Shown: in pieces, positions 3 to 53,361 of the stretch | Numbering within the stretch: the first letter of the stretch is position 1 | How the letters are laid out: every line of letters begins with the position of its first letter | IMG/VR virus record: IMGVR_UViG_3300035157_001159 | Location: 1 to 64,000 of that record | Strand: one strand, 5' to 3' | Length of the DNA: 64,000 bases | From: a virus | Translations under genes and position numbers: made by a program | The notes under the pieces: model-generated | What the model was told of the DNA's origin: nothing | The model's database searches: none | What the model saw: only the letters and a program-made list of their open reading frames with translations

Positions 3-1267
<1,265 letters not shown>

Positions 1268-1287
<20 letters not shown>

Positions 1288-1864
1288 TGCTCAATTAGAT
1301 CATCTTAATGAGATGAGAACAAAGGAATATGAACAGACTATTGAATGGGCAAAGGTAAAGGATAAGGAGGGATATAATGTTGTTTGGTTGGAGACTATTT
1401 CTAATACAGAACCATCATATTTAAAAGGTCAATTTCCATGCTATTGTACAGATAATCATAATCCAAATTATCAAAATAAAGGATCTAATCTTGGAATGGC
1501 GATGAGAAAGTTCTTTGATGATTGTGAAGTTGATGATGACTATGCGATATATCTAACAGGAAGATATCATTTTACAAAGAATACATTTTTTGATATAATG
1601 GAAGCTAATCCTGATTGTGATTTTTACGGTATGAATGATGGTAATGATCAATATTTTACTGGATGTTTTGCTATGAAAAAGAAGTATATGATTGATTGGT
1701 TAAATAAAACTAATTGGCATAATGTGAATACTAATATGATAAACTTTGAACAAACATTGTGGGATTACGTTAAAGAAAACTCACTATATACATGTGAAGT
1801 AGAGGACATGTATATGGATTGTAATGTATTTGGGGCAGGAACTCCTGTTAGATTAACACGATGA
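1268..1864 (+). CDS. Unrecognised protein, possibly glycosyltransferase-like
   Basis: I do not recognise a family with confidence. The 198-residue product starts with a hydrophobic strand LLLVTSA as in GT-A folds. It carries a central DDDYAIYLTGRYHF segment that resembles the acidic metal-binding region of sugar transferases, and NDGNDQYFTGCFAMKKKYM further on, as often seen after the nucleotide-sugar site. The start overlaps fcl by 20 bases and the stop overlaps the GT11 start by four (ATGA), so it is an integral member of the fucose operon. A role in sugar transfer or modification is inferred mainly from this position. Confidence 0.6.
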
Positions 1865-2670
1865 TATCATTTAATAGTTTAGGTAATTTAGGTAGATTGG
1901 GTAATCAGATGTTTCAGTATGCCTCTTTAAAGGGCATAGCAAGAAATCGTGGTTTTGAATTTACTATACCAGAAAGGGAAAAATTTGGTCAGAGGGATAT
2001 CAATGTTAGAGAAGATCCCTTTAATATATACGAAGTCTTTTGTGAGCTTAAACCAGATAAAATAGAAGAATCTTCAAACGAAGTTCTTATGGAAAAGGTT
2101 CATGGATTTGACGAAGATCTATTTAATAATTGCCCTGATAATGTAGATCTGTTTGGGTATTATCAATCACCTAAGTATTTTGAGAACATTGAAGATGAGA
2201 TCAAAAGAGAGTTTACTTTTGATGCTAAGACTGTTCATCCAGCAAAAAAATTATTAGATGATCTTGAAATTGGTGATGAAGCAATTTCTCTTCATGTTAG
2301 AAGGGGTGATTACATATATAATCCTAACCATCCAGTTCAATCTATAGAATATTATGAAGAAGCAATTAATATGTTATCACCTTCAAGTGATATTCCTGTA
2401 ATTGTTTTTTCTGATGATTGGATGTGGTGTAATGAACAGAAGTTCTTTGAAGATGATAGGTTTTTAATATCATCTAATAATGAACCAGATTTTGATATGT
2501 GTTTAATGACTATGTGTAATTATCATGTGATAGCAAATTCATCATTTTCTTGGTGGGGTGCTTGGTTAGGAAATAGTCAAAAAATAATCGCACCAAAAAA
2601 TTGGTTTGGTGCTGAATGTGTATACAAAGAGGTTGATGACATGGTGTTTGGAAATTGGAGTTGGTTATGA
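1861..2670 (+). CDS. Alpha-1,2-fucosyltransferase, GT11 family
   Basis: A 269-residue GT11 transferase that would move L-fucose from GDP-fucose to the O-2 of a galactose or similar sugar. Family hallmarks: GRLGNQMFQYA at residues 11-21, HVRRGDY at 145-151 (the GDP-fucose-binding HxRRxD motif) and SSFSWWGAWLG at roughly 227-237. The length matches bacterial GT11 enzymes such as FucT2/WbsJ. It starts within the stop of the previous gene (ATGA). Donor synthesis by gmd and fcl is encoded immediately upstream. The acceptor cannot be read from sequence, but the GT6 gene two positions downstream uses precisely Fuc-alpha1,2-Gal acceptors in its known homologues. Confidence 0.93.
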   Translation: MISFNSLGNLGRLGNQMFQYASLKGIARNRGFEFTIPEREKFGQRDINVREDPFNIYEVFCELKPDKIEESSNEVLMEKVHGFDEDLFNNCPDNVDLFGYYQSPKYFENIEDEIKREFTFDAKTVHPAKKLLDDLEIGDEAISLHVRRGDYIYNPNHPVQSIEYYEEAINMLSPSSDIPVIVFSDDWMWCNEQKFFEDDRFLISSNNEPDFDMCLMTMCNYHVIANSSFSWWGAWLGNSQKIIAPKNWFGAECVYKEVDDMVFGNWSWL

Positions 2671-3611
2671 TTAATTTGTGGTATGATGAGAGGTATTGGA
2701 ACGCAACAAAATATGAGCGTTCTATTACGAAACATGATGTGGATACGGATGTTGATGGTAATCCTATACCACGACTTGTACCTAATCCAAGACTTACTGG
2801 TCCTGAAAAGGTTGTTATTAATACGATTAAATTATTAGAACTTGCTGGAGTTACCTATACTGTTAATGAGAATAAGTATAGAAATAATCTTATGCTACAG
2901 TATGATAATCGTCAGGCACAGAATCATGCTAAACTGGAAGCAGAAACTTGTGTAATTGGTCCTCAAGTATGGGTCTTTGATCATAATGGAAGATACTTGG
3001 CTAGAAATCCTGATTGTTATCATAAGTTAATTGCTCCATCTAAATGGGTAAGTGATTTCTTTATTAAAAAATGGTATCTACCTCCCAGTGTTATAGGTAC
3101 TTGGGCTGTAGGTATAGATGAATATGATAATAAAAGAGATATTCAATATGATTGTCTTTTATACACAAAACGTAGATCTGCTGAAGAGGTACAAGCAGCT
3201 AAAGATTTCTTAAAGAAGAAAAAGTTAACTTATAAGACTATTGAATATGGTCTTTATAACGAAGAAGAATTTTTAGAGTTGGCTAATCAAGCTAAATTTT
3301 GTTTTCTTGTTAACGGTACTGAGAGTCAAGGAATAGCAGTACAGGAAATTATGTCTTTAGGTGTTCCTTTATTTGTATGGGATCTATCTGAATGGCATGA
3401 TATGGGAGAACAGTGGGTGGTTCCTGCTACTTCTGTTCCTTATTGGGATGATAGATGTGGAGAAAAATTCTATACTCAAAAGAGTATGTCTAGAACATTC
3501 ACTAAGTTTAATAAGAAATTAAAGGCTGGTGAGTATGATCCTAAGTCTTATGTGAAAGAAAATTTATCACATGAAGTTTCTGCTAAAAATCTTTTGAGTC
3601 TTTGGGATTAA
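2667..3611 (+). CDS. Glycosyltransferase, GT4/GT1-like
   Basis: The 314-residue product resembles the C-terminal half of GT-B retaining transferases: LIAPSKWVSDFF (acceptor-side helix), a run of strands after CLLYTKRRS, and ESQGIAVQEIMSLGVPLFVWDLSEW, the E-x7-E-type donor-binding signature with the usual GxP follow-on. The start at 2667 is preferred over 2655 because it overlaps the GT11 stop in an ATGA junction. It ends directly against the next gene (0 bases). Donor and linkage cannot be predicted. Confidence 0.75.
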   Translation: MINLWYDERYWNATKYERSITKHDVDTDVDGNPIPRLVPNPRLTGPEKVVINTIKLLELAGVTYTVNENKYRNNLMLQYDNRQAQNHAKLEAETCVIGPQVWVFDHNGRYLARNPDCYHKLIAPSKWVSDFFIKKWYLPPSVIGTWAVGIDEYDNKRDIQYDCLLYTKRRSAEEVQAAKDFLKKKKLTYKTIEYGLYNEEEFLELANQAKFCFLVNGTESQGIAVQEIMSLGVPLFVWDLSEWHDMGEQWVVPATSVPYWDDRCGEKFYTQKSMSRTFTKFNKKLKAGEYDPKSYVKENLSHEVSAKNLLSLWD

Positions 3612-4307
3612 ATGAAAATATGTATATTAACAATTGCCACTAACAAATACATTCAATTTGTTGAGGAGTTGTATAATAATATTGAGGAACACTTTCTCAA
3701 TGGTCATGATATAGAAGGTATTATTTTTACAGAACATGAGGTAGAGGTATCTGATAATATTAAGGTATCTCAGATTGAACATGAACCTTGGCCTATGCCT
3801 ACCTTGAAAAGGTATAATTATTTTATGAAAGAAGCAGAGCATATTTCTAAGTATGACTACTGCTTCTATTTTGATGTTGATATGGGATTGGTTGCTAAGG
3901 TCGGTGATGAAGTCCTAAGTGATCTTGTTGCTACCATGCATCCCTATCAATCATTTTCTCCTAAAGAACAGAGAACATATGATCGTAATCCAAAATCATT
4001 AGCTTATGTTTCACCTGGTGATGAAGGTGAGCATTATTATGCTGGAGGTTTCAATGGTGGATCTACTAAAGAGTTTCTTAAAATGTCAGAGGTTATTGCT
4101 AATAGGGTGACAAAAGAGTTGGAACATGATATCATAGCATTATGGCATGATGAATCTCATATGAATAGGTATCTAATAGATAACCCACCTAGTCTTACAT
4201 TGACTCCATCTTATTGTTTTGCTGAAGAGCAGATGGGAAATCCAAATTATCCTTTTGAACCAAAGATCATTGCTCTTAAGAAAAATCATAATGAATTAAG
4301 AAATTGA
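3612..4307 (+). CDS. GT6-family glycosyltransferase (ABO blood-group transferase homologue)
   Basis: The 231-residue product aligns by eye over most of its length with the catalytic domain of mammalian ABO / alpha-1,3-galactosyltransferases. Shared blocks are YDYCFYFDVDM (FDVDM at residues 87-91, with the metal-binding DxD), YDRNPKSLAYVSPGDEGEHY, YYAGGFNGGS, the long WHDESHMNRYL catalytic segment, and KNHNELRN at the C-terminus. GT6 enzymes transfer Gal or GalNAc in alpha-1,3 linkage, classically to Fuc-alpha1,2-Gal. It has no membrane anchor or stem, so it would be a soluble cytosolic enzyme, like bacterial GT6 proteins. Many bacterial GT6 members have NxN instead of DxD (recalled, not checked), so the DxD here is notable. 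Confidence 0.9.
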   Translation: MKICILTIATNKYIQFVEELYNNIEEHFLNGHDIEGIIFTEHEVEVSDNIKVSQIEHEPWPMPTLKRYNYFMKEAEHISKYDYCFYFDVDMGLVAKVGDEVLSDLVATMHPYQSFSPKEQRTYDRNPKSLAYVSPGDEGEHYYAGGFNGGSTKEFLKMSEVIANRVTKELEHDIIALWHDESHMNRYLIDNPPSLTLTPSYCFAEEQMGNPNYPFEPKIIALKKNHNELRN

Positions 4308-4308
4308 T

Positions 4309-4965
4309 ATGTATAGTTATAGAGCATGTTTAGGACAAATAGAATTTCCTTCATATTATAAACCAGTTGTATTTGATGTTGGGTGTAATATTAATGAGAT
4401 ACCATCTCACTGTGGAACTCTTGATGATTTTACTGAGTTATTTTTATCTCAATATTCAAAGTCTAAGGCATATGGAATAGATCCTTTATATTGGCAAGCA
4501 TATGAGGATAAGTGGAAAGATGATGAAAGAGTTACGGTAGTTAAGAAAGCACTTACTGATACTATAGGAACATGTACTTTATATACTCCTGGATCAGATA
4601 ATCCAATAGAAGCACATGCTATCTCTTCATTATATAATAGGGAATGTTTTTGTGAAGGTATAGCAGAACATAAAGTTGAATGTACTACACTTGAAACTTT
4701 ATTTGATGAATTGGATTTAGAGATAATAGATTATCTTAAGATAGATGCTGAAGGTGCTGAATTAAGTATTCTAAAGGGATCTGAGTCTTTACTTAAAAAG
4801 GAAAAGATTAGTTGTATTCAGTTGGAATATGGTGGTGCTTATGAGGATGCTGGTTATACTATTAAAGATGTGGTAGAATATTTGGGTAGTAGTGGATATA
4901 AGGAGTTCTTTAGAACTAATGATGAATTATTATTTGCACACGAATCTGATATTCCACCAGATTAA
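4309..4965 (+). CDS. FkbM-family SAM-dependent methyltransferase
   Basis: The 218-residue product carries VFDVGCNI (SAM-binding motif I) near residue 22, AYGIDPLYW (motif II), VKKALTDTIGTCTLY, and the FkbM signature EIIDYLKIDAEGAELSILKG at about 142-160. FkbM enzymes O-methylate sugars or natural products, and in polysaccharide clusters they typically methylate a glycan hydroxyl. It starts one base after the GT6 stop. Placement among transferases supports glycan O-methylation; the exact position is unknown. Confidence 0.87.
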   Translation: MYSYRACLGQIEFPSYYKPVVFDVGCNINEIPSHCGTLDDFTELFLSQYSKSKAYGIDPLYWQAYEDKWKDDERVTVVKKALTDTIGTCTLYTPGSDNPIEAHAISSLYNRECFCEGIAEHKVECTTLETLFDELDLEIIDYLKIDAEGAELSILKGSESLLKKEKISCIQLEYGGAYEDAGYTIKDVVEYLGSSGYKEFFRTNDELLFAHESDIPPD

Positions 4966-4982: not shown

Positions 4983-5630
4983 ATGAGAAAGATTGATCTG
5001 AGAGATATACCAGTCATCTATATGAATCTTGAGCAGCATACTGAAAAGGATGCTAATATGAAAAAGATTTTATTTCAATGTGGGTTTAAAACTATACTTC
5101 GTTTAGAGGGTGTTGCTAGACCAGATAATCCTGTTGCTGGATGTTCTTCTGCTCACCATAAAGCATTGATAGAAATAGATCCTCCATTTATAATTTTTGA
5201 AGATGATTGTCAAATTAAAAATTTTAGACCTGAAGTTGAGATACCTGAAGATGCTGATGCTGTATATCTAGGAATATCTTCTTGGGGTAGAATGAATGGG
5301 CATTCTGGTCCTTATGTTCAGTATGATCAAGTGAAGGATGATCTCTATAGGGTTTATAATATGTTAGGTGGTCATGCCGTGTTATATCTAACAGAAGACT
5401 ATATTAAGATGTGTCAGAAGGTTACTTATCATGCTGGATATGTAATTGAAGATTATCAAGACATTGGATTTGCTGAGATACAAAGATGGTTTAATGTATA
5501 CGCATTTGATGATCCTTTCTTCTATCAGACTAGTGGGTATCATGGAACTGTGGAAGCATTAACAAGTTATCCTACAGAAGAGTGCTTTGCATTTAATAAA
5601 AATTATTTCTTACCTGAAAAAATATCATGA
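4983..5630 (+). CDS. GT25-like LPS glycosyltransferase
   Basis: The 215-residue product follows the GT25 (LPS biosynthesis / procollagen galactosyltransferase-like) layout: IPVIYMNLEQHTEKDANM at the start, GCSSAHHKALIEI, then the acidic IIFEDDCQI motif (EDD at about 61-64), and AVYLGISSW and GGHAVLYLTEDYIKM further on. It ends four bases into the next gene (ATGA). A weak ribosome site (GGAGAT) lies about 6 bases ahead of the start. A second, more typical GT25 gene lies at 7959. The sugar transferred is not predictable. Confidence 0.78.
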   Translation: MRKIDLRDIPVIYMNLEQHTEKDANMKKILFQCGFKTILRLEGVARPDNPVAGCSSAHHKALIEIDPPFIIFEDDCQIKNFRPEVEIPEDADAVYLGISSWGRMNGHSGPYVQYDQVKDDLYRVYNMLGGHAVLYLTEDYIKMCQKVTYHAGYVIEDYQDIGFAEIQRWFNVYAFDDPFFYQTSGYHGTVEALTSYPTEECFAFNKNYFLPEKIS

Positions 5631-6535
5631 AGACTAAATCTTTAGTTACTGGTGGTGCTGGATTTATTGGATCTAATTTAGTAGATAAACTCTTAACTAT
5701 GGGTCATGAAGTCATAGTTATAGATAATCAATTCTCTGAGGCTCATGATGAATTCTATTGGAATTTTCATGGACAAAACTATCGTATGGATATTAGAGAT
5801 TATTCTCTTACACGTAAATTATATGATGGGGTGGACTATGTATTTCATCTTGCTGCAGAAGCAAGGATACAACCTGCTATAGAGAATCCTATAGAAGCAG
5901 TTAGTATTAACTCTGTAGGAACCTGTACAGTTCTTCAGTGTGCTAGAGAGGCAGGTGTAAAGAGAGTAATGTATTCTTCAACATCTTCTGGTTACGGTAT
6001 GAATGAACCTCCTAATGTGGAGACACAAGATGATGATTGTTTAAATCCTTACTCAGTATCTAAAGTTAATGGTGAGAAGTTATGTAAAATGTATACCAGT
6101 TTGTATGGATTGGAGACGGTATGTTTTAGATACTTTAATGTATATGGTAATAGGCAACCTCTGAAGGGGCAGTATGCTCCTGTGATAGGTATATTTCTAA
6201 GACAACTGGCTGCTGGTGAACCATTGACTATTGTTGGTGATGGAGAGCAGAGAAGAGATTTTACTCATGTAGATGATGTTGTTAATGCTAATATAAAAGC
6301 AGCACTAGCAAACATAGATGATAAATGTTTTGGGCAAGTTTATAATGTAGGAACTGGTTTGAATCATTCTATTAATGAGATTGCTGCTATGATATCAGAT
6401 AATGTAATTCATATTCCACCACGACCTGGTGAAGCTAAGATCAGTCTTGCTAACAATACTAAACTTAGAGAAACTTTTGATTGGGAACCAACAGTTAAAC
6501 TTGAAACCTATCTTGTTGGTATGTTAAATGGCTAA
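5627..6535 (+). CDS. NAD-dependent sugar epimerase/dehydratase (GalE/WbpP-like)
   Basis: Extended short-chain dehydrogenase of 302 residues: VTGGAGFIGSNLV (NAD-binding, about 8-20), HLAAEARIQPAIENP, SSTSSGYG, and the catalytic YSVSK, followed by RYFNVYGNRQ and RRDFTHVDDVV. This combination is usual for UDP-glucose/UDP-GlcNAc 4-epimerases, which would supply UDP-Gal or UDP-GalNAc, the donors GT6 enzymes use. It overlaps the previous gene by four bases and the halogenase by eight. Other nucleotide-sugar activities (for example 4,6-dehydratase) cannot be excluded without a tree. Confidence 0.87.
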   Translation: MKTKSLVTGGAGFIGSNLVDKLLTMGHEVIVIDNQFSEAHDEFYWNFHGQNYRMDIRDYSLTRKLYDGVDYVFHLAAEARIQPAIENPIEAVSINSVGTCTVLQCAREAGVKRVMYSSTSSGYGMNEPPNVETQDDDCLNPYSVSKVNGEKLCKMYTSLYGLETVCFRYFNVYGNRQPLKGQYAPVIGIFLRQLAAGEPLTIVGDGEQRRDFTHVDDVVNANIKAALANIDDKCFGQVYNVGTGLNHSINEIAAMISDNVIHIPPRPGEAKISLANNTKLRETFDWEPTVKLETYLVGMLNG

Positions 6536-7958
6536 GTATGTAAATGAAATTGTTATAGTAGGTGGAGGAACTTCTGGGTGGCTTGCCGCTAAAACTTTGT
6601 CTAGTAAAATTTCATTTACTAAAGTTACTTTGATTGATAAAGAAATTTCTGAACCAGTAGGTGTAGGAGAGGCAACTCTTGTAGGGTTCAAACCATTTTT
6701 AAAAGAAGTTTGCTTTTTTTCGGATTATGAAATAAATGAATGTTTACATTATTGTGAATCTGTAAGAAAGAATGGTATTTTATTTCCTGATTGGGGGATA
6801 GATGGAAATGATATATGGCATCCTTTTTATTTTGCAAATATGTTTTCTAATTGTATCGATAAACCATTATTGATTGATGCTTGGTCATTACAAGATGTTA
6901 TTGATATTAAAGAAATAATGCCTGATAAGATGAAAGAGAGTGATACATTTGCTGAACATATTAATGCTTTAAAACTTGTTGAGTATTTAAAAAATAATTT
7001 ACTTAATAATGATAGTCATACTAAGATTAATTATATACAATCTGCAGTTAAGGATATTGCTAGAGATGATAATGGAATATCTTCTTTAACATTGGAAGAT
7101 GGTAGTATTGTTGGTGGGGATTTGTTTATAGATTGTACTGGTTTTAAAAGTATTCTTAAAGATAATAGAGATAGAGTAGATCTATCAGATCGTTTATATG
7201 TTGATACTGCTATTGCTGGACATATTGACTATCTTGACAAAAAAGAAATTGTTCCATATGTTTCTTGTCCAGCAGTTGATCATGGATGGATATGGAAAAT
7301 TCCTTTAAATACTAGAATGGGATCTGGTTTAGTTTTCAATAGGAATATAACTGATATTGAGGAGGCAAAGAAATATTTTTGTCAGCATTGGGATAATAGA
7401 ATATCTCTAGATGATCTAACTGTTATTGATTGGACTCCATACTATGATAATAATCAATGGGATAAGAATGTTATTTCTATTGGATTATCTGCTGGATTTA
7501 TAGAACCACTTGAAAGTACTGGAATTGAAATGATATTGAGAGGGTTGAGACAATTATCTGATATTATTGGATCTAGATGGTATAATGATATGGCTATTAG
7601 ATATTTTAACAATTATATGATAGATCAATTTGATACTGCTGTTGATTTTGTTAATATGCATTATTCAATATCAACAAAGAATACACCTTTTTGGAGTTAT
7701 GTGAGAGATAAGTATCTATCTTCTGAAACCTTAAAAATATTCTCTGATAATTTAAGTAGTCAAGAACCTTCAATATACGAATTTCCAAGTAATCACTTTA
7801 TAGGTGCTGGTAGTTGGATACATTGGATGGTACAATTAGGATATCCTATATCTAAGAAAGAATATCTTATAGGTAAAAAAAAGATACGGGATCAAGAAAT
7901 TAAAATAGATACTAATATAATGGATATATTAAAGAATGTAATTGGATGGATACATTGA
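6528..7958 (+). CDS. Flavin-dependent tryptophan-halogenase-type enzyme
   Basis: The 476-residue product has the full halogenase motif set: FAD-binding VGGGTSGWLAAK at residues 11-22, GVGEAT at 45-50, Lys81 in RKNGILFPDW at the place of the chloramine-forming lysine (Lys79 in PrnA), GWIWKIP at 253-259 (the GWxWxIP signature that blocks mono-oxygenation), and Glu329 in FIEPLESTGI matching PrnA Glu346. It therefore looks catalytically intact. It would need FADH2 from a reductase, none of which is visible here. It sits inside a glycan operon with 8-base overlap upstream and 0-base spacing downstream, so its substrate may be something other than free tryptophan. Confidence 0.93.
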   Translation: MAKYVNEIVIVGGGTSGWLAAKTLSSKISFTKVTLIDKEISEPVGVGEATLVGFKPFLKEVCFFSDYEINECLHYCESVRKNGILFPDWGIDGNDIWHPFYFANMFSNCIDKPLLIDAWSLQDVIDIKEIMPDKMKESDTFAEHINALKLVEYLKNNLLNNDSHTKINYIQSAVKDIARDDNGISSLTLEDGSIVGGDLFIDCTGFKSILKDNRDRVDLSDRLYVDTAIAGHIDYLDKKEIVPYVSCPAVDHGWIWKIPLNTRMGSGLVFNRNITDIEEAKKYFCQHWDNRISLDDLTVIDWTPYYDNNQWDKNVISIGLSAGFIEPLESTGIEMILRGLRQLSDIIGSRWYNDMAIRYFNNYMIDQFDTAVDFVNMHYSISTKNTPFWSYVRDKYLSSETLKIFSDNLSSQEPSIYEFPSNHFIGAGSWIHWMVQLGYPISKKEYLIGKKKIRDQEIKIDTNIMDILKNVIGWIH

Positions 7959-8747
7959 ATGGATAAGAATAAAGCACTACACAAACTTAAAGGTCTTCCT
8001 CACGTATATTGTATTAATCTTGATGGTGAACCAAATAGATGGGAATCTATGGAGACAATGCTTAAGTATTGGGAAGTAGAAAACTATACTCGTATCTCTG
8101 CTTATGATGGTAGAGAAGATGATCTGGGTGATATTCTTAAGGGTAGGTATCCTGATCAAATGTCTGGTGGTGAGGTTGGATGTACTACTTCACATCTTAA
8201 AGCAATGAAGGAGTTTCTTAAAACTGATGCTCCTTGTGCTATCATTATGGAAGATGATTGTGATCTTGGACCAGTAGCACATTGGGGATTTACTTGGAAA
8301 GATTTTTACGCAAAGGTTCCATATGATTATGATGTAATTCAACTTGCTATTATTAATCCAGCACAGATGTATGTTCAATTACATCGTAGGTTTGTAAATG
8401 ATTTCTCTACAGCATGTTATATGATTACAAGACATCATGCGGAAAAACTTGTTAGGTTACATTGTAGAGGTGATAAGTATAAGTTGGATCAAGGTGTCTT
8501 GCCTAGAGCAGTGGCAGATGATTTAATATACAATTCAGGAAATACTTTTTCCATACCACTATTTCTTTATAAGATTGAGTTAGGATCTTCGATACATGAC
8601 ATACATGTAAATGTATTTCATAAATCAAGTTATGAAGGTCTATGGCAGTTTTGGAGATCAGATGCTCAGAATATAGATGATTGGAATCCAATGTTTTCGT
8701 ATGATCCGTACTTTAATCGTATCCCACCTGGTTTTGAAGGTAAGTAA
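7959..8747 (+). CDS. GT25-family glycosyltransferase
   Basis: The 262-residue product has the classic GT25 start VYCINLDGEPNRWESMETML, RISAYDGR, the GEVGCTTSHLKAMKEF motif and CAIIMEDDCDL near residues 93-103 (metal-binding EDD), followed by VIQLAIINPAQMY. These enzymes add galactose or glucose to LPS in bacteria. It is the last gene of the leftward glycan operon: it begins the base after the halogenase stop and is followed 16 bases later by a hairpin terminator. A more divergent paralogue is at 4983. Confidence 0.88.
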   Translation: MDKNKALHKLKGLPHVYCINLDGEPNRWESMETMLKYWEVENYTRISAYDGREDDLGDILKGRYPDQMSGGEVGCTTSHLKAMKEFLKTDAPCAIIMEDDCDLGPVAHWGFTWKDFYAKVPYDYDVIQLAIINPAQMYVQLHRRFVNDFSTACYMITRHHAEKLVRLHCRGDKYKLDQGVLPRAVADDLIYNSGNTFSIPLFLYKIELGSSIHDIHVNVFHKSSYEGLWQFWRSDAQNIDDWNPMFSYDPYFNRIPPGFEGK

Positions 8748-8763
8748 TATAAGGTAACTTTAT

Positions 8764-8787
8764 GGAGGTCATTAGACCTCCTTTTTA
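8764..8787 (+). terminator. Rho-independent terminator of the glycan operon
   Basis: Seven-base stem GGAGGTC (8764-8770) and GACCTCC (8775-8781) with loop ATTA, followed by TTTTTAT. It separates the sugar operon from the hli promoter. Confidence 0.88.
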
Positions 8788-8804
8788 TTGTTCGGGTTCC
8801 CCTA

Positions 8805-8833
8805 TTGTAAAGTTTTATGTATAACTTTATAAT
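8805..8833 (+). promoter_or_regulatory. Sigma-70-type promoter upstream of the hli cluster
   Basis: TTGTAA (8805-8810), 17-base spacer, then a perfect TATAAT (8828-8833). It lies 36 bases ahead of the first hli start and just behind the terminator, so it is the likely host-polymerase promoter for the hli genes. Confidence 0.7.
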
Positions 8834-8869
8834 TACTAAATAATTTTGTTACTATTCTTAACACAATAA

Positions 8870-9079
8870 ATGACTTCTACGACTTCCAAGAAGTATACCA
8901 CAACTGAGTATGGTAAGCAGAACATGTTTGCTGCTCAACCTCCTATGGAGTATGTGGAGAACTATCAAGGATATTGGAAGAATGCTGAGTTACTCAATGG
9001 TCGCCTAGCGATGATTGGTTTATTCGCAGCAATCCACAACTACGCCATCTTCGGATGGGTAATTCCAGGCATTGCCTGA
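8870..9079 (+). CDS. hli: High-light-inducible protein (Hli), 69 aa
   Basis: Single-helix chlorophyll-binding stress protein of the Hli/CAB superfamily that protects photosystems in the thylakoid membrane. The CAB signature ELLNGRLAMIGL (ExxNGRxAMxG) lies at residues 40-51, and the helix ends in the usual VIPGIA tail. The first 35 residues are polar, including GYWKNAE just before the helix. This is the longest and most host-like of four hli genes in the cluster. It follows a TTGTAA/TATAAT promoter, and a weak hairpin sits between it and the next hli gene. Confidence 0.95.
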   Translation: MTSTTSKKYTTTEYGKQNMFAAQPPMEYVENYQGYWKNAELLNGRLAMIGLFAAIHNYAIFGWVIPGIA

Positions 9080-9908: not shown

Positions 9909-10202
9909 ATGGCTTATTCCATTACACTCCGTTCACCTGATGGAGAAGAGAATGTTATTCAGTGTGAAGAAGATCAATATATTCTAGAAGCAGCAGAGGA
10001 TGCTGGTATAGATTTACCATCATCTTGTAGAGCAGGAGCATGTTCCTCTTGTTTAGCAAAAGTATTAGAAGGAAGTGTTAATAATGATGAGCAATCATTC
10101 TTGGATGATGAACAGTTAGAAGAAGGATGGTCTCTTATATGCGTAGCGACACCAGAATCAGATTGTGTTATTCTAACAGAACAAGAGGATAATCTAGACT
10201 AA
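9909..10202 (+). CDS. petF: Plant-type [2Fe-2S] ferredoxin
   Basis: A 97-residue ferredoxin, the usual length for cyanobacterial PetF. Cys40, Cys45 and Cys48 ([10 protein letters not shown]) and Cys78 (LICVATP) form the C-x4-C-x2-C-x29-C cluster site. The protein is acidic, as expected for docking to photosystem I and to reductases. In infected cells it could draw electrons from photosystem I to phage or host enzymes, for example bilin reductases, which related phages encode elsewhere. It is read from its own late box. Confidence 0.96.
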
Positions 10203-12868: not shown

Positions 12869-13951
12869 ATGACAACTCTTCAAAAAAGAGAACAGGGTCT
12901 TCTACAAGGATGGCCTCAGTTCTGCGAGTGGGTTACAAGCACAAACAACCGTATCTATGTTGGTTGGTTCGGTGTCTTGATGATCCCTTGCCTATTAGCG
13001 GCTACAACCTGCTTCATCGTAGCATTCATTGCTGCTCCTCCTGTCGATATTGACGGAATCCGTGAGCCAGTTGCTGGTTCATTCATGTATGGTAACAACA
13101 TCATTTCTGGTGCTGTTGTACCTTCTTCCAACGCAATTGGATTACACTTCTACCCTATATGGGAAGCTGCTACTCTAGATGAGTGGCTCTACAACGGTGG
13201 TCCTTACCAGTTGGTAATCTTCCACTTCCTCATCGGAATCTCTGCTTACATGGGCAGACAGTGGGAACTATCATACCGTTTAGGTATGCGTCCTTGGATC
13301 TGTGTTGCTTACTCAGCACCTGTATCTGCTGCTTTCGCAGTATTCCTTGTATACCCATTCGGTCAGGGTTCATTCTCAGACGGAATGCCTTTAGGTATCT
13401 CTGGAACATTCAACTTCATGTTCGTATTCCAAGCAGAACATAACATCCTTATGCACCCATTCCATATGGCTGGTGTTGCTGGTATGTTCGGTGGAGCATT
13501 ATTCTCTGCTATGCATGGTTCTCTTGTTACATCTTCACTTATCCGTGAAACCACTGGGTTAGATTCTCAGAACTATGGTTACAAGTTCGGACAAGAAGAA
13601 GAGACATACAACATCGTTGCTGCTCATGGATACTTTGGTAGACTTATTTTCCAATATGCTTCATTCAACAACAGCAGAAGTCTTCACTTCTTCCTAGCAT
13701 CATGGCCTGTTATCTGTGTATGGTTAACCTCTATGGGTATCTGTACAATGGCATTCAACCTTAACGGTTTCAACTTCAACCAGTCAGTCGTAGACTCATC
13801 AGGTAAGGTTGTTCCTACTTGGGGTGATGTTCTTAACAGAGCAAACCTTGGTATGGAAGTTATGCACGAGCGTAATGCTCACAACTTCCCACTTGACTTA
13901 GCATCTGCTGAGACAAGCGAAGTAGCACTTGTTGCTCCTTCAGTTGGTTAA
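12869..13951 (+). CDS. psbA: Photosystem II reaction-centre protein D1
   Basis: Complete, uninterrupted 360-residue D1, which binds the PSII primary chlorophylls, QB and the Mn cluster. Diagnostic stretches include [14 protein letters not shown] (first helix), [51 protein letters not shown], and the Mn-ligand tail [15 protein letters not shown]. The last 15 residues after DLA are the usual CtpA-cleaved extension. Expression during infection replaces photodamaged host D1. Codon use is visibly richer in C-ending codons (AAC, TTC, TAC) than in neighbouring genes, as expected for a host-derived, highly expressed gene. No intron is present. Confidence 0.99.
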
Positions 13952-45689: not shown

Positions 45690-45980
45690 ATGGGTAGATA
45701 CATTGGTTTAATTATCAATAAAGGAAAGGGTGGAGGAGGACTAGGTCCTACTGAACCTTTTACTAGATCATCAGGTATTACTACAGATAGTAATAATAAT
45801 GTTACTGCTGTAACCTTAGGTGATGTAGCTTATTCTGATATAAAGTATGATGCTAATGCGTCTACGGTTGGTTTAATCACTGGATTCACTGAAAATATTG
45901 GAGGTGTATCCAAAAAGTGGAGGCTTACATATGAAGCTGGCACTAATTTGGTAACTGTTGTTGAGGAGGATCCAAACTAA
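45690..45980 (+). CDS. Small fibre-associated protein
   Basis: The 96-residue product contains GRYIGLIINKGKGGGGLGPTEPFTRSSGITTDSNNNVTAVTLGDVAYSDIKYDANASTVGLITGFTENIGGVSKKW. This beta-type protein has a glycine hinge near residue 15. It is nine bases after the previous gene and coupled to the next by a TAATG junction. Function not recognised. Confidence 0.65.
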   Translation: MGRYIGLIINKGKGGGGLGPTEPFTRSSGITTDSNNNVTAVTLGDVAYSDIKYDANASTVGLITGFTENIGGVSKKWRLTYEAGTNLVTVVEEDPN

Positions 45981-47083
45981 TGGCAATTGATGTTTTAACC
46001 TATAATGCTTTACAAGAAGTAAATCAAGAACTTAGAAAAGAACTTGCTGATCTAACCCAACAAGTCACCGATGCTGGTGGCGGTGGTGGCGGTGGTGCTG
46101 GTGTACCACTTCAAACACAGTGTGATGTAGTAAGAAAGGTTGCTGAAGCAGGATACATGCTTAACGCCAACCAGTGGTGCTTGATACCTACTACTATGGG
46201 TGCATGTCCATTATGTCCTGATGGTGGTACAGCATTTACTAATGGATTTGCTGTTTGTGATACTACAGGATATTATCGTTGTGGTGCTAGCTGTACTTGG
46301 ACTGTTCCATCTGGTGTGACTTGTGCTCGTTTCCAAATCTGGGGTGCTGGTGGAGGTAGTAATGAGTCTAGGTGTTGTGGATTCGCCCCTTCAGGATCTT
46401 CAGGTGCTTATGCTTCTGTTATTATTCCAGTTTCTGCTGGTAGTCAATATACATTATGTGCTGGTTGTGCTTATTGTTGCTATGCTTATGGGGATGGATA
46501 TAACCAAGCAAGAGGGGATACATCTTATGTTCAGGGAACTAACTTAAATAACTTCTGTGCTCTAGGTGGTTGGTCTGGATGTATGTTTAAAGAGATTGAG
46601 GATAGAGCAGATCAGTATGGAGTTAAGATAGGACAGTTCTGTTATTGTAGATATCTTGGTGGATGTATTTGTAGAAGTGGTGCTTGGGTATGTGCTGAGT
46701 ATGAAACACAAGGACAAGGATATCCAGAAGGACATTGCTCAGGAGCTCATCCAGCTTGGGTTTCTCGTTGTGTATGTTTCTATGGAACTTCTACTGGTGG
46801 TAGTGGTGTATATGGACACAGAGGAATGTGGTCATATATAAGTGTTGATAATTACATGCCAGCGTTGGGATGGATTTCTACAATGTATGGTTATCCACAA
46901 TACTGCTGTGGTAGAGGTGGATGTTGGGTATGTAATAACTGTGGTGGATTCTGCCAGAGTGCTTGGCAAACTGGTGTTAGACCGATGCCTGGTGCTGGTG
47001 GGTGGATGACATCTTCCTGTGGTGGTAACTGTACTTGTGGTGACGCAGGTAGAATGGGCATGGTTTGTGTTTGTTATAATTAA
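45980..47083 (+). CDS. Extremely cysteine-rich surface-type protein (copy 1)
   Basis: The 367-residue product has 35 cysteines. A short N-terminal coiled-coil-like segment (LQEVNQELRKELADLTQQV) and a glycine hinge lead into CTWTVPSGVTCARFQIWGAGGGSN, then YASVIIPVSAGSQYTLCAGCAYCC, the same core as the glycine-rich modules. Many CC, CxC and CxxC pairs follow (FCYCRYLGGCICRSG, YCCGRGGCWVCNNCGGFC), and the end is GAGGWMTSSCGGNCTCGDAGRMGMVC. Since there is no signal peptide, cysteines could bind metal or form disulfides after lysis. A paralogue is at 47844. Confidence 0.75.
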   Translation: MAIDVLTYNALQEVNQELRKELADLTQQVTDAGGGGGGGAGVPLQTQCDVVRKVAEAGYMLNANQWCLIPTTMGACPLCPDGGTAFTNGFAVCDTTGYYRCGASCTWTVPSGVTCARFQIWGAGGGSNESRCCGFAPSGSSGAYASVIIPVSAGSQYTLCAGCAYCCYAYGDGYNQARGDTSYVQGTNLNNFCALGGWSGCMFKEIEDRADQYGVKIGQFCYCRYLGGCICRSGAWVCAEYETQGQGYPEGHCSGAHPAWVSRCVCFYGTSTGGSGVYGHRGMWSYISVDNYMPALGWISTMYGYPQYCCGRGGCWVCNNCGGFCQSAWQTGVRPMPGAGGWMTSSCGGNCTCGDAGRMGMVCVCYN

Positions 47084-47843: not shown

Positions 47844-48980
47844 ATGGATGTATTAGTTTATAGTGCTCTTAATGAGCAGTCATCTCTTAAGAAGCAGATT
47901 GCTGCCAAGCAAAAAGAATTATTTGATTTGAAGGCAGATGCTGGTGGTGGTGGTGCTGGTACTTATGAAGAAGCACCTGTTGAAGCATGGACTGCTGCTT
48001 GTAAGTGGTTATGTATGGATGGTTCTGGATGTAACTTAGAACGTTATCTGAACTGTTGCCCAGCTGATACCACCAAGTGGACTTGTATCTATGAAGGTGC
48101 AGATTGGACTGGTAATACGAAGGTTTGTAACACTACTGAGAGTGGTAATTGTGGTAAAAACTGTACTTGGGTTGTTCCTTCTGGTGTAACTAGAGCTAGA
48201 TTTCAATTGTGGGGTTCTGGTGGTGGAGCAAACCATGCATCTAGATGTTGTGGATGGACACACTTTGGATCTACTGGTGCTTATCTTTCAGTTATTATTC
48301 CAGTAACTGCTGGACATTCTTATACAGTTTGTGCTGGTTGTGCTTATTGTTGTTGGGGTGGTTCTCAATCTGGTTCTAATAGAATACCAGGATGTCCAAC
48401 ATATGTTACTGGATGTGGATTATGTTATGTTTGTGCTCAAGGTGGTGATGGATCACAGGGTGAGTATTGGGGAACTAGATTAGGTGGAGAGAATCCTTGC
48501 TATCAACCATGTCATAATGGTAGTTACAGAGAAGTTCGTGTTTGTCAGTATGGTGCATCAATATGTAAAAATAGTGGTGGATATAGTGGAAACTTCCCTG
48601 CAATGGCTGGTTCAATCTATGCTGGTACGTTAAATATAGATCCAGCAGCAGCAGATTTGGATGGATCGGGTACTCCTACACACACAAAACTAACTCCAGA
48701 GAACTTAATTTATGGTATCCGTGGAATATGGGGTGGTTGGTGTCACCATACAAATAATTATGGTTGTAACTGCCATGCTCCAATATATGGATTTGAGAAT
48801 ACTTCACAATGTGTACAGGGATGGTCATCAAACTCATGTTGTGGTGGTGGATGGAGATATACTAGTGGATATCTACAAGTTCCTGGTGCTGGTGGATGGA
48901 CTTCAAGTTCTTCTAGTGGTTGTCAGAACCATTGTGGAGACATGGGTAGATTTGGAATGGTTTGTATTCAGTGGAAGTAA
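47844..48980 (+). CDS. Extremely cysteine-rich surface-type protein (copy 2)
   Basis: The 378-residue product has 32 cysteines and is paralogous to the 45980 protein. Shared features are an N-terminal coil (SSLKKQIAAKQKELFDLKADAGGGG), CTWVVPSGVTRARFQLWGSGGGAN, YLSVIIPVTAGHSYTVCAGCAYCCWGG, SNSCCGGGWRYT and the terminal VPGAGGWTSSSSSGCQNHCGDMGRFGMVC. The middle parts differ, so the pair has diverged by domain swapping or insertion. It is the last gene before the strong terminator at 49006. Confidence 0.75.
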   Translation: MDVLVYSALNEQSSLKKQIAAKQKELFDLKADAGGGGAGTYEEAPVEAWTAACKWLCMDGSGCNLERYLNCCPADTTKWTCIYEGADWTGNTKVCNTTESGNCGKNCTWVVPSGVTRARFQLWGSGGGANHASRCCGWTHFGSTGAYLSVIIPVTAGHSYTVCAGCAYCCWGGSQSGSNRIPGCPTYVTGCGLCYVCAQGGDGSQGEYWGTRLGGENPCYQPCHNGSYREVRVCQYGASICKNSGGYSGNFPAMAGSIYAGTLNIDPAAADLDGSGTPTHTKLTPENLIYGIRGIWGGWCHHTNNYGCNCHAPIYGFENTSQCVQGWSSNSCCGGGWRYTSGYLQVPGAGGWTSSSSSGCQNHCGDMGRFGMVCIQWK

Positions 48981-49141: not shown

Positions 49142-50410
49142 ATGAAAAAAGCTTTCTTTATTAATGGTGGTAGTGGACGTGTACTTTGTTCCATGCCAGC
49201 ATTAGAAAAATACGCTGAGAAAGATGACGATTTTATAATCGTTGCTGAATCTTGGGGTGAACTATACTTTTTAAATGAGAAATTAAGAGATAAGGTATAT
49301 CAAATGGTTCATAAAGGACTATTTGAAACTATGTTGACTGATCGAAAGATAATATCACCAGAACCATATAGAGTTAATCAATACTTTAATCAAAAATGTA
49401 ATCTCATTCAAGCATTTGATATTGAAATCAATGATCTTGATGATGTTAGAGATCCTGGTCCTATTAACCTATCTCTTAGTAAAGAAGAGCAGATAACTGG
49501 ACATAATGTAGTAGCAGAAGTTAAGCAAACTTTAGGTAAAGATAAAACAGTAGTTTTTCAACCATTTGGTCAGGGAAGTAAGAAGGAAGGAAACTTCATT
49601 TTTGATCCTACTGGCAGAAGTTTTGAAGTTTCAAATGTTATTCAAGTAATAGAAGAGTTAAGAAAAAATTATTCTGTTATTTTAATGACTGAGATAGAAA
49701 TTCCAGGATGGGAAGGACTTGGTGTTGCTTGTCCTACTGGAATGGATCTTAATAAATGGGCAGGAGTAATTAATGCTGCTGATTATTTTGTAGGTTGTGA
49801 TAGTGTGGGACAACATTTTGCTCATGCTATGGGTAAACCTGCTACTGTTGTGGTAGGGTCAACTTATCCTGAAAACATTTCATATCCAGAAAGTAAGAAA
49901 TTTACTATTATTGATAATGCTGAAGGGAAGAGAAGATATAGTCCTATAAGATTGACATATGATTTATTTACTGAAAGGAATAATGAAGCTTTAATGTGTT
50001 TTGATAGTAGTGTTGTTAAAAAGATTGCAAAATCAATCAAAGATAAGATAGGTGTAAGCACTACAAATAATAAAACAATGGGACTAACTTCTCCCCCAAG
50101 AAATACTTTAAATCAAAGTAAAGCATATGCTACACCTAAACCAGGAGCAGGAGGAGGATTTAAATCTAATATTAAAGAACTTAAACCTAGTACTAAAGAA
50201 CCAGTAAAATTTAAATCAAAATCAAAATTAACATCATCTAAGACAGAAGTATTAGAACCTTCTAAAACTACTCCTTTAGCAATGAAACCGTTATCTTCTG
50301 GTAGTAGTAAGGGTGTTAAATATAATGGCTTCCAACAACCATTAAAGCCATCTTCAAAGAAGAAACCAATTGATCAATTGTTGGAACTTGAAGTTAATTC
50401 TAAATCGTAG
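49142..50410 (+). CDS. GT9-type (heptosyltransferase-like) protein with disordered tail
   Basis: The 422-residue product: residues 1-310 follow the ADP-heptose:LPS heptosyltransferase (GT9) plan, with FFINGGSGRVLCSMPALE, VVFQPFGQGS, and the donor-site stretch WAGVINAADYFVGCDSVGQHFAHAMGKPATVVVGSTYPENI. The last ~110 residues are a low-complexity Lys/Ser/Pro/Thr tail (KSNIKELKPSTKEPVKFKSKSKLTSS and so on) not found in ordinary GT9 enzymes. The tail could tether the enzyme to the virion or a partner. ADP-heptose synthesis genes follow in the same operon. Confidence 0.78.
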   Translation: MKKAFFINGGSGRVLCSMPALEKYAEKDDDFIIVAESWGELYFLNEKLRDKVYQMVHKGLFETMLTDRKIISPEPYRVNQYFNQKCNLIQAFDIEINDLDDVRDPGPINLSLSKEEQITGHNVVAEVKQTLGKDKTVVFQPFGQGSKKEGNFIFDPTGRSFEVSNVIQVIEELRKNYSVILMTEIEIPGWEGLGVACPTGMDLNKWAGVINAADYFVGCDSVGQHFAHAMGKPATVVVGSTYPENISYPESKKFTIIDNAEGKRRYSPIRLTYDLFTERNNEALMCFDSSVVKKIAKSIKDKIGVSTTNNKTMGLTSPPRNTLNQSKAYATPKPGAGGGFKSNIKELKPSTKEPVKFKSKSKLTSSKTEVLEPSKTTPLAMKPLSSGSSKGVKYNGFQQPLKPSSKKKPIDQLLELEVNSKS

Positions 50411-50416
50411 GGTATT

Positions 50417-52234
50417 ATGAGTATTATTCTTGGATGTTCTCGTGGTCATAATTCTAGTACCACATTGATGGTTGATGGTGAGATTGTATTTTATCTAGAA
50501 GAAGAACGTTTATCTAGATTTAAAAGAGATGGAACACCATTATTGGGTTTATTAAAAGCCTTTGAATATGTAGATCATATAGATCATTTAGTCGTAACTC
50601 ATACACATAGGCATGGTCCTAAGTGTGATTGGACTGGTGAGGATTTATATCAGGGTTGGATAAGGAAGCTTACAAAGCAGACTAAGATGGATGCTGGACC
50701 TAGAATTACTTTTATTGATACGATACATCATGAGGTTCATGCTAGTTGTGCTTTTTTAAACTCTGGATTTAAATCTGCTGCTTGTTTAAGTGTTGATGGT
50801 GCAGGAAGTTTCTTGGGATGTGAGTTGACTGATGATACTATCTTTGAATTTGAAACTATTTTTAAAGCAGCGTATGATCCTCATTTAAAATTTGATGTTG
50901 TTTATAAGCATCTTGGTACTTCTGATGCTATTGGTGTTAAGAATGTTGGTGAAAATAAGGAATTATTCATTACAGAATATCCAGGTCTTACAAAAGCATA
51001 TGAAGCGATAACTGAATATTGTGGATTTGATGCTATTGATGCTGGAAAAACTATGGGTCTATCTCCATATGGAAAGGAGAATCCTGATCTTCCAGAATTG
51101 TTTAGAGATGGTTGGGTCAATAGAGAATTTTTTGTTCCAAATTATCCCAATAATTCTCATATTAATATTCAAAGATATCCTATCTTAAGTAAGGATGCTG
51201 AAGATATTATTGCATTACATGAAAAAGATAAAACAAAACCACCAGTAAAAAGAGAAAAATATGGATTGAGTTCACCATATACTAATGATAAGACTTCTAG
51301 ATTTTTTAGAGGTGGGTGTAAGGAATATACACAAGTACAAAAAGATTTAGCATATAAGATTCAGAAAGAAACTGAAAATGCTATGATAAAGTTAATTCAA
51401 AAGGCTCATGATTTAACTGGTGAAAAGAATATAGTTATTTCTGGTGGTTATGGATTGAATTGTGTATCTAATTATCAGTATTTAAAACATTTTCCAGATT
51501 TAAATATCTATGTTGAACCAATATCACATGATGGTGGAACTTCTATAGGTGCTGTTAGAAAAGTTTGGGCACAAGAAGAAAAAATAACTAGTCCACCACC
51601 AAGAGTAACTTCAATTTATTATGGTCCACAATATGATCCAGATACTTATTTGGATGAATATGATCACTTGGATGTTGTTGATACTTCTTATGATGATGTT
51701 GCTAAACTAATTCGTGATGGTAGCATTGTTACAATCTTCCAAGGAAGGTCTGAAGGTGGACCTAGAGCACTTGGTAATAGATCTATTTTATTTGATCCTA
51801 CTATTAAGAATGGTAAGGATCTTGTTAATGAGGTAAAACATAGAGAGTTCTTTAGACCTTTTGCTTGTTCTATTAAGAAGGAAAAAGTTAATGAATGGTT
51901 TGATCTTCAGGGTAGAGAAGATTCACCTCATATGATGTATGCTGTTGAATGTTTACCTGGTGTTCAAGAAAAGATTCCATCAGTCATTCATGTTGATGGT
52001 ACATGTAGGATTCAAACTCTCACTAAAGATGAGAACAAACATTATTACAATCTTATAGATTCTTTTGAAAAGTTAAGTGGTGTTCCAATACTTTTTAATA
52101 CTTCTTTTAATCTTGGTGGAGAACCATTAGTAGAAACAATTCATGATGCTATTAATACTTTATATAAGAGTAAGATTGAATATATGTATCTTCCTGAGAT
52201 ACAAAAGTTAGTAAAGATTCCTAATGCAGAATGA
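50417..52234 (+). CDS. NodU/CmcH-type carbamoyltransferase
   Basis: The 605-residue product has both family domains. The N-terminal ASKHA-like domain carries IILGCSRGHNSSTTLMVDGEIVFYLEEERLSR, HHEVHASCAFLNSGF, and SVDGAGSF, then GLSPYGKENPDLPEL and VISGGYGLNCVSNYQYL. The C-terminal Sua5-like part carries IFQGRSEGGPRALGNRSILFDP and REFFRPFACSI. Family members use carbamoyl phosphate and ATP to O-carbamoylate sugars or antibiotics. Placed after a sugar transferase and before heptose genes, the most likely target is a phage-made or host glycan. It overlaps the next gene by 11 bases. Confidence 0.93.
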   Translation: MSIILGCSRGHNSSTTLMVDGEIVFYLEEERLSRFKRDGTPLLGLLKAFEYVDHIDHLVVTHTHRHGPKCDWTGEDLYQGWIRKLTKQTKMDAGPRITFIDTIHHEVHASCAFLNSGFKSAACLSVDGAGSFLGCELTDDTIFEFETIFKAAYDPHLKFDVVYKHLGTSDAIGVKNVGENKELFITEYPGLTKAYEAITEYCGFDAIDAGKTMGLSPYGKENPDLPELFRDGWVNREFFVPNYPNNSHINIQRYPILSKDAEDIIALHEKDKTKPPVKREKYGLSSPYTNDKTSRFFRGGCKEYTQVQKDLAYKIQKETENAMIKLIQKAHDLTGEKNIVISGGYGLNCVSNYQYLKHFPDLNIYVEPISHDGGTSIGAVRKVWAQEEKITSPPPRVTSIYYGPQYDPDTYLDEYDHLDVVDTSYDDVAKLIRDGSIVTIFQGRSEGGPRALGNRSILFDPTIKNGKDLVNEVKHREFFRPFACSIKKEKVNEWFDLQGREDSPHMMYAVECLPGVQEKIPSVIHVDGTCRIQTLTKDENKHYYNLIDSFEKLSGVPILFNTSFNLGGEPLVETIHDAINTLYKSKIEYMYLPEIQKLVKIPNAE

Positions 52235-52640
52235 TATTGTTTGGTGTAATGGCACATTCGATATTCTTCATCCAGGACACCTAGAATTATTCAAGGTTGC
52301 TAGATCTTTAGGAGACAAAGTAATAGTTGCTACAGATACAGATGAAAAGATTCGTGCTGACAAAGGAGAGCATCGCCCTATAAATGATCTTCATTATAGG
52401 GTTGCTATGCTTGAGGCAATCAAGTATATTGATGTTGTTCACACATTTGGTAGTAGGAAAGAATTAGAAGATTTAATTGAACTATATCAACCCGATATAT
52501 TATTACTTGGTGATGATTGGAGGGATGGTGATGTAGTTGGTTGGGAAAATGCTGGTGAGGTAAGACATCTTCCTAGAGTTGGTGGATATGCCAGCAGTAA
52601 TGTCATCAAAAAGATTAATGAAAGTATTGTTACTGGGTGA
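52224..52640 (+). CDS. Heptose-phosphate adenylyltransferase (HldE C-domain homologue)
   Basis: The 138-residue cytidylyltransferase-fold protein: VWCNGTFDILHPGHLELFKVAR with the HxGH catalytic motif at about residues 18-21, ATDTDEKIRADKG, and the downstream motif GGYASSNVIKKI (usually G-x-STT/SSxxI). It corresponds to the separate C-terminal domain of bifunctional HldE (RfaE), which charges heptose-1-phosphate with AMP. It overlaps the sugar-kinase gene that corresponds to the HldE N-domain by 23 bases, so the two halves are encoded in reverse order to the host fusion. Confidence 0.85.
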   Translation: MQNDIVWCNGTFDILHPGHLELFKVARSLGDKVIVATDTDEKIRADKGEHRPINDLHYRVAMLEAIKYIDVVHTFGSRKELEDLIELYQPDILLLGDDWRDGDVVGWENAGEVRHLPRVGGYASSNVIKKINESIVTG

Positions 52641-53361
52641 TAGTTGTGAGGATGAGTATATCTATGGTAGATGTACTAGGTTAAGTCCAGAAGCTCCTGT
52701 ACCTGTCTTAGACTATGCTAAGATACAAACTAAACCTGGTATGGCAGCTAATGTATGCTTAAATCTTCAGTCATTTAATATGGAGATTACATTCTTAACT
52801 AATCCTGAGAAGATTGTAAAGACTAGATTTATTGATGAGAAATCAAATCAACATATTCTTAGAGTTGATAATGAAGAGAGAGTAAAACCTTTATTAGTTC
52901 CTGTAGCAACAAATAGTTTTGATGCTATTGTGATATCAGATTATAATAAAGGGTATCTATCTACAGAAAAGATATTTGAGATTGTGGAGAGTGCATCTTG
53001 TCCCGTGTTTATTGATAGTAAGAAGTCTATACTTCCTAACAAACCCAATTGCTTTATTAAGATAAATGATGTAGAATATGAGAAATTAGATGACTATAAG
53101 ATAGACAATCTAATAGTAACAAAGGGATCTCAAGGATGTATTTACAATAATACATTATATCCAGCAGAGAAAGTCAATGTTTATGATGTTGTCGGTGCTG
53201 GAGATACTTTTCTTGCTGGTTTAGTATATGGTTATCTAACATATAATGATATAGAACAGGCATTAATGTTAGGTAATAGAGCAGCAGCAGTTGCTGTTCA
53301 GCAATTAGGAACTTACGTTTTACAACAGGAGGACATTCATGAGATACTGTATAGATATTGA
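52618..53361 (+). CDS. Heptose-7-phosphate kinase (HldE N-domain homologue, shortened)
   Basis: PfkB-family kinase of 247 residues. LLGDSCEDEYIYGRCTRLSPEAPVPVLDY and KPGMAANVCLNLQSFN match the RfaE domain I start (GDxMLDxYxxGxxxRxSPEAPVPV, GGAANVAxNL). VTKGSQGCIY and YDVVGAGDTFLAGLVYGYL carry the nucleotide-binding site and the catalytic Asp (GAGD). It is some 70 residues shorter than the usual domain. I start at 52618; the earlier ATG at 52579 reads through the overlap with the transferase. It overlaps the HAD gene by 23 bases. Confidence 0.85.
   Translation: MKVLLLGDSCEDEYIYGRCTRLSPEAPVPVLDYAKIQTKPGMAANVCLNLQSFNMEITFLTNPEKIVKTRFIDEKSNQHILRVDNEERVKPLLVPVATNSFDAIVISDYNKGYLSTEKIFEIVESASCPVFIDSKKSILPNKPNCFIKINDVEYEKLDDYKIDNLIVTKGSQGCIYNNTLYPAEKVNVYDVVGAGDTFLAGLVYGYLTYNDIEQALMLGNRAAAVAVQQLGTYVLQQEDIHEILYRY

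Follow-up and report, generated by a model that had tools for sequence, protein, structure and literature searches.

A flavin-dependent halogenase gene inserted between two glycan genes in the operon of a P-SSM2-like cyanophage

The 64,000-nucleotide stretch analysed here (the window; positions 1 to 64,000 of IMG/VR virus record IMGVR_UViG_3300035157_001159, an 88.6 kb linear contig) carries the record's one gene for a flavin-dependent halogenase (FDH), which is located within a glycan operon. Enzymes of this kind put chlorine, bromine or iodine onto aromatic rings. The gene lies as an exact single-gene insertion between the genes for a nucleotide-sugar epimerase and a family 25 glycosyltransferase (GT25). 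The chances are about even, in our judgement, that the FDH is a working, exchangeable tailoring enzyme that halogenates an electron-rich aromatic group on, or associated with, the product of the operon. Phage FDHs are already known; what is added here is a clade member in a different glycan operon, together with a clean insertion.

The translation was compared with profiles and solved structures. In a Pfam profile search it matched PF04820 (Trp_halogenase) with an E-value of 6e-78 and 263 bits (cut-off 21), the match spanning residues 7-440 of 476 and positions 1-445 of the 458 in the profile. A PHROG profile search gave phrog_2928, tryptophan halogenase (E 3e-101), and an NCBIfam search gave nothing above cut-off. 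Solved FDHs match down to 1e-47, the best being BorH, LooH, Thal, RebH, PrnA and VirX1. The family motifs are a GxGxxG flavin motif (GGGTSG, 12-17), K81, GWIWKIP (253-259) and FIEPLESTG (324-332), the last containing E329. The catalytic lysine and glutamate are invariant in all 106 FDHs of an alignment drawn from phages, viral contigs and cells. Judged by sequence, 6528-7958 encodes a real member of the FDH family, far beyond a chance match. An AlphaFold2 model, for which the input alignment comprised 38 window and viral-contig rows, had a mean pLDDT of 86.5 and a pTM of 0.86. The best 50 PDB structure matches listed are all FDHs, including Thal, RebH and PrnA, with TM scores (query) of 0.75-0.84. 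The original prediction had described an intact-looking FDH with Lys81, Glu329 and GWxWxIP at these positions and had proposed a structural comparison with PrnA and with halogenases of protein-bound substrates; the description is confirmed, with the qualification that the segment spanning residues 100-144 is short.

PrnA, RebH, Thal, BorH and PyrH resemble the window FDH in fold, flavin motif, catalytic Lys/Glu and WxWxIP, but the PrnA/RebH/PyrH-type enzymes have the Trp4 substrate motif (HYHGFE-type, PrnA 443-461), which was not found in the window FDH translation. The alignments to PrnA, RebH and Thal stop at chain residues 419-447, before this motif. Trp4 is present in the tryptophan-specific groups A and B and absent in group C, which includes BrvH, MibH, VirX1 and others (PMC8269204). 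Free tryptophan is therefore an unlikely substrate of the window FDH, as the PrnA-type C-terminal motif that clamps tryptophan is absent, and a free signalling indole, which had been suggested earlier as a possible substrate, is weakly disfavoured for the same lack (PMC8269204).

The features of the operon and its surroundings are as follows.

39-356, + strand: GDP-mannose 4,6-dehydratase, 3' part, cut by the contig start
328-1287, + strand: GDP-L-fucose synthase (1e-101 to a solved GDP-fucose synthetase)
1268-1864, + strand: operon gene without a Pfam match
1861-2670, + strand: glycosyltransferase family 11 (GT11), fucosyltransferase type
2655-3611, + strand: operon gene without a Pfam match, with homologues at the same place in P-SSM2 and AG-345-F15
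3612-4307, + strand: glycosyltransferase family 6 (GT6), blood-group ABO transferase type
4309-4965, + strand: FkbM-type methyltransferase; an unrelated gene takes its place in AG-345-F15
4983-5630, + strand: operon gene without a Pfam match, conserved in P-SSM2 (57%) and AG-345-F15 (90%)
5627-6535, + strand: nucleotide-sugar epimerase/dehydratase; closest solved proteins UDP-glucose 4-epimerase and WbgU
6528-7958, + strand: FDH, PF04820, 476 amino acids, open frame from ATG to TGA
7959-8747, + strand: GT25
9909-10202: ferredoxin, named from inspection of the translation and synteny with P-SSM2
12869-13951: psbA, named in the same way

A megablast search found the operon also in the single-cell virus AG-345-F15 and parts of it in P-SSM2, P-SSM5 and AG-345-E02. 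The gene order GT11...GT6...epimerase-GT25 is common to AG-345-F15, AG-345-E02 and P-SSM2 (PSSM2_265-271), and the FDH is absent at that junction; P-SSM2 does have an FDH, but it belongs to another clade and lies elsewhere in the genome. In AG-345-F15, where the epimerase and GT25 are 93.7% and 94.7% identical in amino acid sequence to those of the window, the two genes overlap by 8 nucleotides (nt) with nothing between them, and in P-SSM2 and AG-345-E02 they are coupled likewise. Between the aligned blocks the window and AG-345-F15 differ by 1431 bp, which is exactly the FDH open reading frame (ORF). AG-345-F15 also differs in having a 2-oxoglutarate (2OG)-Fe(II) oxygenase gene just before the epimerase and in the exchanged FkbM gene.

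In the window, the 3' end of the epimerase gene overlaps the FDH start by 8 nt (6528-6535), while the GT25 start abuts the FDH stop without overlap (TGA|ATG, 7958/7959). Of the overlap with sugar genes on both sides that had been predicted, the upstream half thus holds and the downstream half does not. The placing of the halogenase inside a phage glycan operon stands, and is strengthened by the single-ORF insertion and by the sugar-gene neighbourhoods of its clade. Since three relatives are without the gene, a gain in the lineage of the window appears the simpler reading than a loss. The FDH has the lowest G+C content among the operon genes measured (29.1%, with 31.4% for the likewise exchanged FkbM gene), a value that a recent arrival would be expected to show. 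The junctions resemble each other over 13 nt (TTAAATGGCTAAG, 6523-6535; TTGAATGGATAAG, 7955-7967). This likeness was weighed as a possible trace of recombination and dropped, because such repeats are common in this AT-rich stretch and this one follows from the reading frames and the start codons at both junctions.

Scans of viral contigs for GT25 together with the epimerase yielded at least 50 distinct epimerase-GT25 pairs, 17 of them directly coupled and the others with inserts. None of the 50 distinct pairs among the matches listed has an FDH between the two genes. Ten insert proteins were tested, and those that had a Pfam match, mostly products of glycan genes, were glycosyltransferases (GT6, GT4/GT1-like, GT7-like), methyltransferases (FkbM and others), a UDP-galactopyranose mutase, an epimerase (Polysacc_synt_2) and a DUF3431 protein. 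The epimerase-GT25 junction is a slot for glycan genes, occupied in the window by a halogenase.

The window FDH alone, as a query against viral contigs, gave no match; alignments of its relatives were used instead and found at least 584 FDH-encoding stretches. In a quick maximum-likelihood tree of 106 rows, the window FDH is sister to those of contigs L014 and L015 (SH-aLRT 99) within a clade of 32 rows (SH-aLRT 100). The clade is viral except for L094, an Alcaligenaceae metagenome-assembled genome and the sole clearly cellular member among the matches listed, a count that may be too low for cells. In L014, L015, S-SSM7 and others, the clade member lies between carbamoyltransferase and HldE-like nucleotidyltransferase/kinase genes, a glycan cassette other than that of the window FDH, and loci of the L014, L015 and S-SSM7 type have tail fibres upstream and gp13 downstream. 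The L094 FDH (5998-7491) adjoins a family 2 glycosyltransferase gene, with an epimerase and a 2OG oxygenase near.

Neighbouring genes were clustered into families by BLAST, representatives being checked against Pfam, and six sugar families were counted. Within four genes of the FDH, these account for 59 of 207 genes in the clade loci, compared with 12 of 261 at other phage FDH loci; eight or more genes away in the clade loci, they account for 5 of 96. The sugar-context label switches 10 times over the tree, as against 15-21 times in 200 shuffles; the labels of the window and L094 were assigned manually, since the glycosyltransferases there belong to none of the six families. A Pfam tally of non-redundant neighbours shows that 2OG oxygenases are the commonest neighbours of clade and other phage FDHs alike, and that PfkB, CTP_transf_like, carbamoyltransferase and DUF6445 are more frequent near clade FDHs than near other phage FDHs. 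The exact insertion and the sugar-gene company of the family suggest that the FDH decorates something that the glycan cluster makes.

In characterised FDHs, hypohalous acid forms from reduced flavin, O2 and halide, moves some 10 Å to the lysine of the active site and attacks an electron-rich aromatic carbon, with a glutamate assisting (PMC8407142). In the mechanism that we propose, the glycan operon of a Salacisavirus-like (P-SSM2-like) cyanophage would have gained the FDH gene alone, in translational coupling with its neighbours. FADH2 would be supplied by a flavin reductase of the host, assumed because no protein of the Flavin_Reduct or FMN_red families was found in the record, which may be incomplete. 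From O2 and seawater halide the enzyme would make hypohalous acid and hand it to Lys81, with Glu329 supporting, and an electron-rich aromatic group of a substrate that the operon makes or uses would be halogenated. To our knowledge sugars are not substrates of FDHs, so the most plausible target would be an aromatic substituent of a glycoconjugate or an aromatic residue of a glycosylated protein, not a bare sugar and probably not free tryptophan. The purpose would be to alter the surface of the host or of the virion.

The presence/absence pair formed by the window on one side and AG-345-F15 and P-SSM2 on the other links a single halogenase with a defined glycan operon, and the operon yields a small list of candidate partner enzymes. 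The pair also bears on the natural substrate of phage halogenases, a question that has stood since prnA-like genes were noticed in cyanophages and VirX1 was assayed. Should the enzyme halogenate a glycoconjugate or a fibre protein, this would be a kind of phage surface chemistry without a record in the literature searched, where no direct precedent for hydroxylation or halogenation of phage fibres was found. A wider generalisation, offered as an unlikely one, is that marine phages draw on exchangeable sets of decorating enzymes (halogenases, 2OG-Fe(II) oxygenases, methyltransferases and glycosyltransferases) for their own surface proteins or linked glycans, with aromatic halogenation varying the surfaces of phages or infected cells; the window would then show one clean single-gene insertion of such an enzyme.

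Several points weigh against a halogenase acting with this operon. The association of FDHs with glycan genes is one of neighbourhood, the Fisher value for the sugar neighbours of clade and other phage FDHs (5e-13) ignores shared ancestry, and the clade members L016, L031 and L053 have few or no sugar families nearby. No gene was seen in the operon that would attach an aromatic group to a sugar. Because the window comes from a metagenomic contig, the FDH junctions depend on its assembly. In addition, the lid segment 100-144, between HPF (98-100) and HxD/N (144-146), is 45 residues long (clade median 53, VirX1 71), and this shortening could mean altered or lost activity.

The last of these points also speaks for one alternative, that the protein no longer halogenates and is a PF04820 relative acting as a monooxygenase or drifting. 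Within its core the AlphaFold2 model is weakest at residues 101-140, the C-terminus being weak too, and the changes at clade-conserved sites include G62C, W72C and D146N. Asparagine at position 146 is nevertheless found in 10 of the 106 aligned FDHs, and the window FDH differs at 5 of 87 clade-conserved positions, the fifth highest count of 32 members (median about 3) and within the clade range; none of the five is a gap, K81 or E329. With K81, E329 and the GWxWxIP motif (here GWIWKIP) kept and the frame open over 476 codons, decay of the gene found no support, and loss of halogenation is considered decidedly improbable. A small-molecule route would have the FDH, with or without the sugar genes, produce a halogenated metabolite of the amino-acid or indole type that serves as an antimicrobial or a signal. 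It is in keeping with VirX1, which accepts diverse free aromatics (PMC8407142). Such a route is rather unlikely here: the Trp4 motif is absent, no non-ribosomal peptide synthetase, polyketide synthase or export genes were seen adjoining the window FDH, and the operon is dominated by glycosyltransferases.

The remaining alternative concerns the virion itself: phage FDHs and 2OG-Fe(II) oxygenases, sometimes with sugar genes, would modify the phage's own Gly/Cys/Trp-rich tail fibres by aromatic halogenation, hydroxylation and glycosylation. In many cyanophages the FDH lies after tail-fibre genes, among 2OG oxygenases and before gp13, and the fibres upstream of these cassettes contain about 10% Cys and 3-4% Trp, their Trp and Tyr offering the aromatic substrate that sugars lack. 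Of the clade members, 21 of 31 have a 2OG-type family within four genes, and of the other phage FDHs 37 of 55 do, in agreement with the Pfam tally. These counts are approximate, since family 21, one of the BLAST families taken as 2OG, includes a protein that matches an endonuclease V PHROG. In the window, though, ferredoxin, psbA and other genes lie between the FDH and the fibre genes, the FDHs of P-SSM2, HTVC008M and S-MbCM6 do not adjoin fibres, and the tail-to-gp13 interval may be a mere hot spot for cargo; we regard fibre modification as an unlikely role for the window FDH. Decoration of a product of the glycan operon is the reading that we prefer.

The original prediction had seen a marine phage halogenase as novel in itself, which earlier work and the counts made here contradict. 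Lists of phage prnA genes go back to at least 2010 (PMC3037559, PMC2984593), a halogenase was counted in 20 of 153 cyanophage genomes (PMC10452541), and 66 phage records with FDH homologues were found in this study. VirX1 of cyanophage Syn10 is a characterised halogenase with the preference I > Br > Cl (PMC8407142); the identity of the Syn10 VirX1 sequence to PDB 6qgm was confirmed. Like the window FDH, it is a phage FDH with the conserved lysine and glutamate and without the Trp4 motif (PMC8269204). Unlike it, VirX1 has a longer lid, shares about 27% identity with it, falls in another group of the tree (row L005_7508), and has tail-fibre and 2OG genes as its neighbours, no sugar family being present within four genes. 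An FDH of S-SSM6a in a 10-gene sugar/carbamoyltransferase cluster has been described, with proposed roles in capsule decoration or in making a halogenated secondary metabolite (Iyer 2021, PMC7824862); its accession, AGH07741.1, was verified. This FDH and that of S-SSM7 are in the same clade as the window FDH, at about 40% identity, and also in a cyanomyovirus sugar-gene setting. They lie, however, between carbamoyltransferase/2OG and HldE-like genes beside tail fibres, whereas the window FDH is in a P-SSM2-type GT11/GT6/GT25 operon and not within a carbamoyltransferase/HldE/cupin cassette.

The window has such a cassette of its own at 49142-56015 (GT9-like, carbamoyltransferase, cytidylyltransferase, PfkB kinase, cupin, epimerase), a second glycan cassette that matches the one in S-SSM7 but is without its halogenase. 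Two tail-fibre-like proteins are encoded at 45980-47083 and 47844-48980, with 8.5-9.5% Cys, 3-4% Trp and 16-17% Gly; in S-SSM7, L014 and others, members of this Cys/Trp-rich family precede the carbamoyltransferase cassette as a tandem. In the first operon, the end of the GDP-fucose pathway, GT11 and the ABO-type GT6 stand together at 39-4307, which suggests a blood-group-like fucosylated glycan. The GT6 matches a B. ovatus enzyme at 8e-41 and ABO transferases at about 1e-35, and is 83% identical to the GT6 of P-SSM2.

Late-promoter-like sites (TATAAATA) are not enriched in the window (6 found, 10.6 expected), and none lies before the halogenase. All six (9522, 26631, 30637, 45328, 47095 and 57802) are on the + strand, and four lie within about 35 bp before the starts of structural genes, like T4-type late promoters.

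Elsewhere among the FDH loci, the viral contigs L018, L020, L080 and L064 each have between three and five halogenase genes, among which several 2OG-Fe(II) oxygenase genes are interspersed, and the arrays of L018 and L020 adjoin tail fibres. The S-SSM7 (L002) gene directly before the halogenase (8447-9001) is annotated as denV (DNA endonuclease V), an annotation that looks doubtful, as the representative of the family in which the gene clusters has a match to 2OG-FeII_Oxy_3. A 6 kb contig of a human faecal phage, L012, contains two adjacent halogenase-like ORFs.
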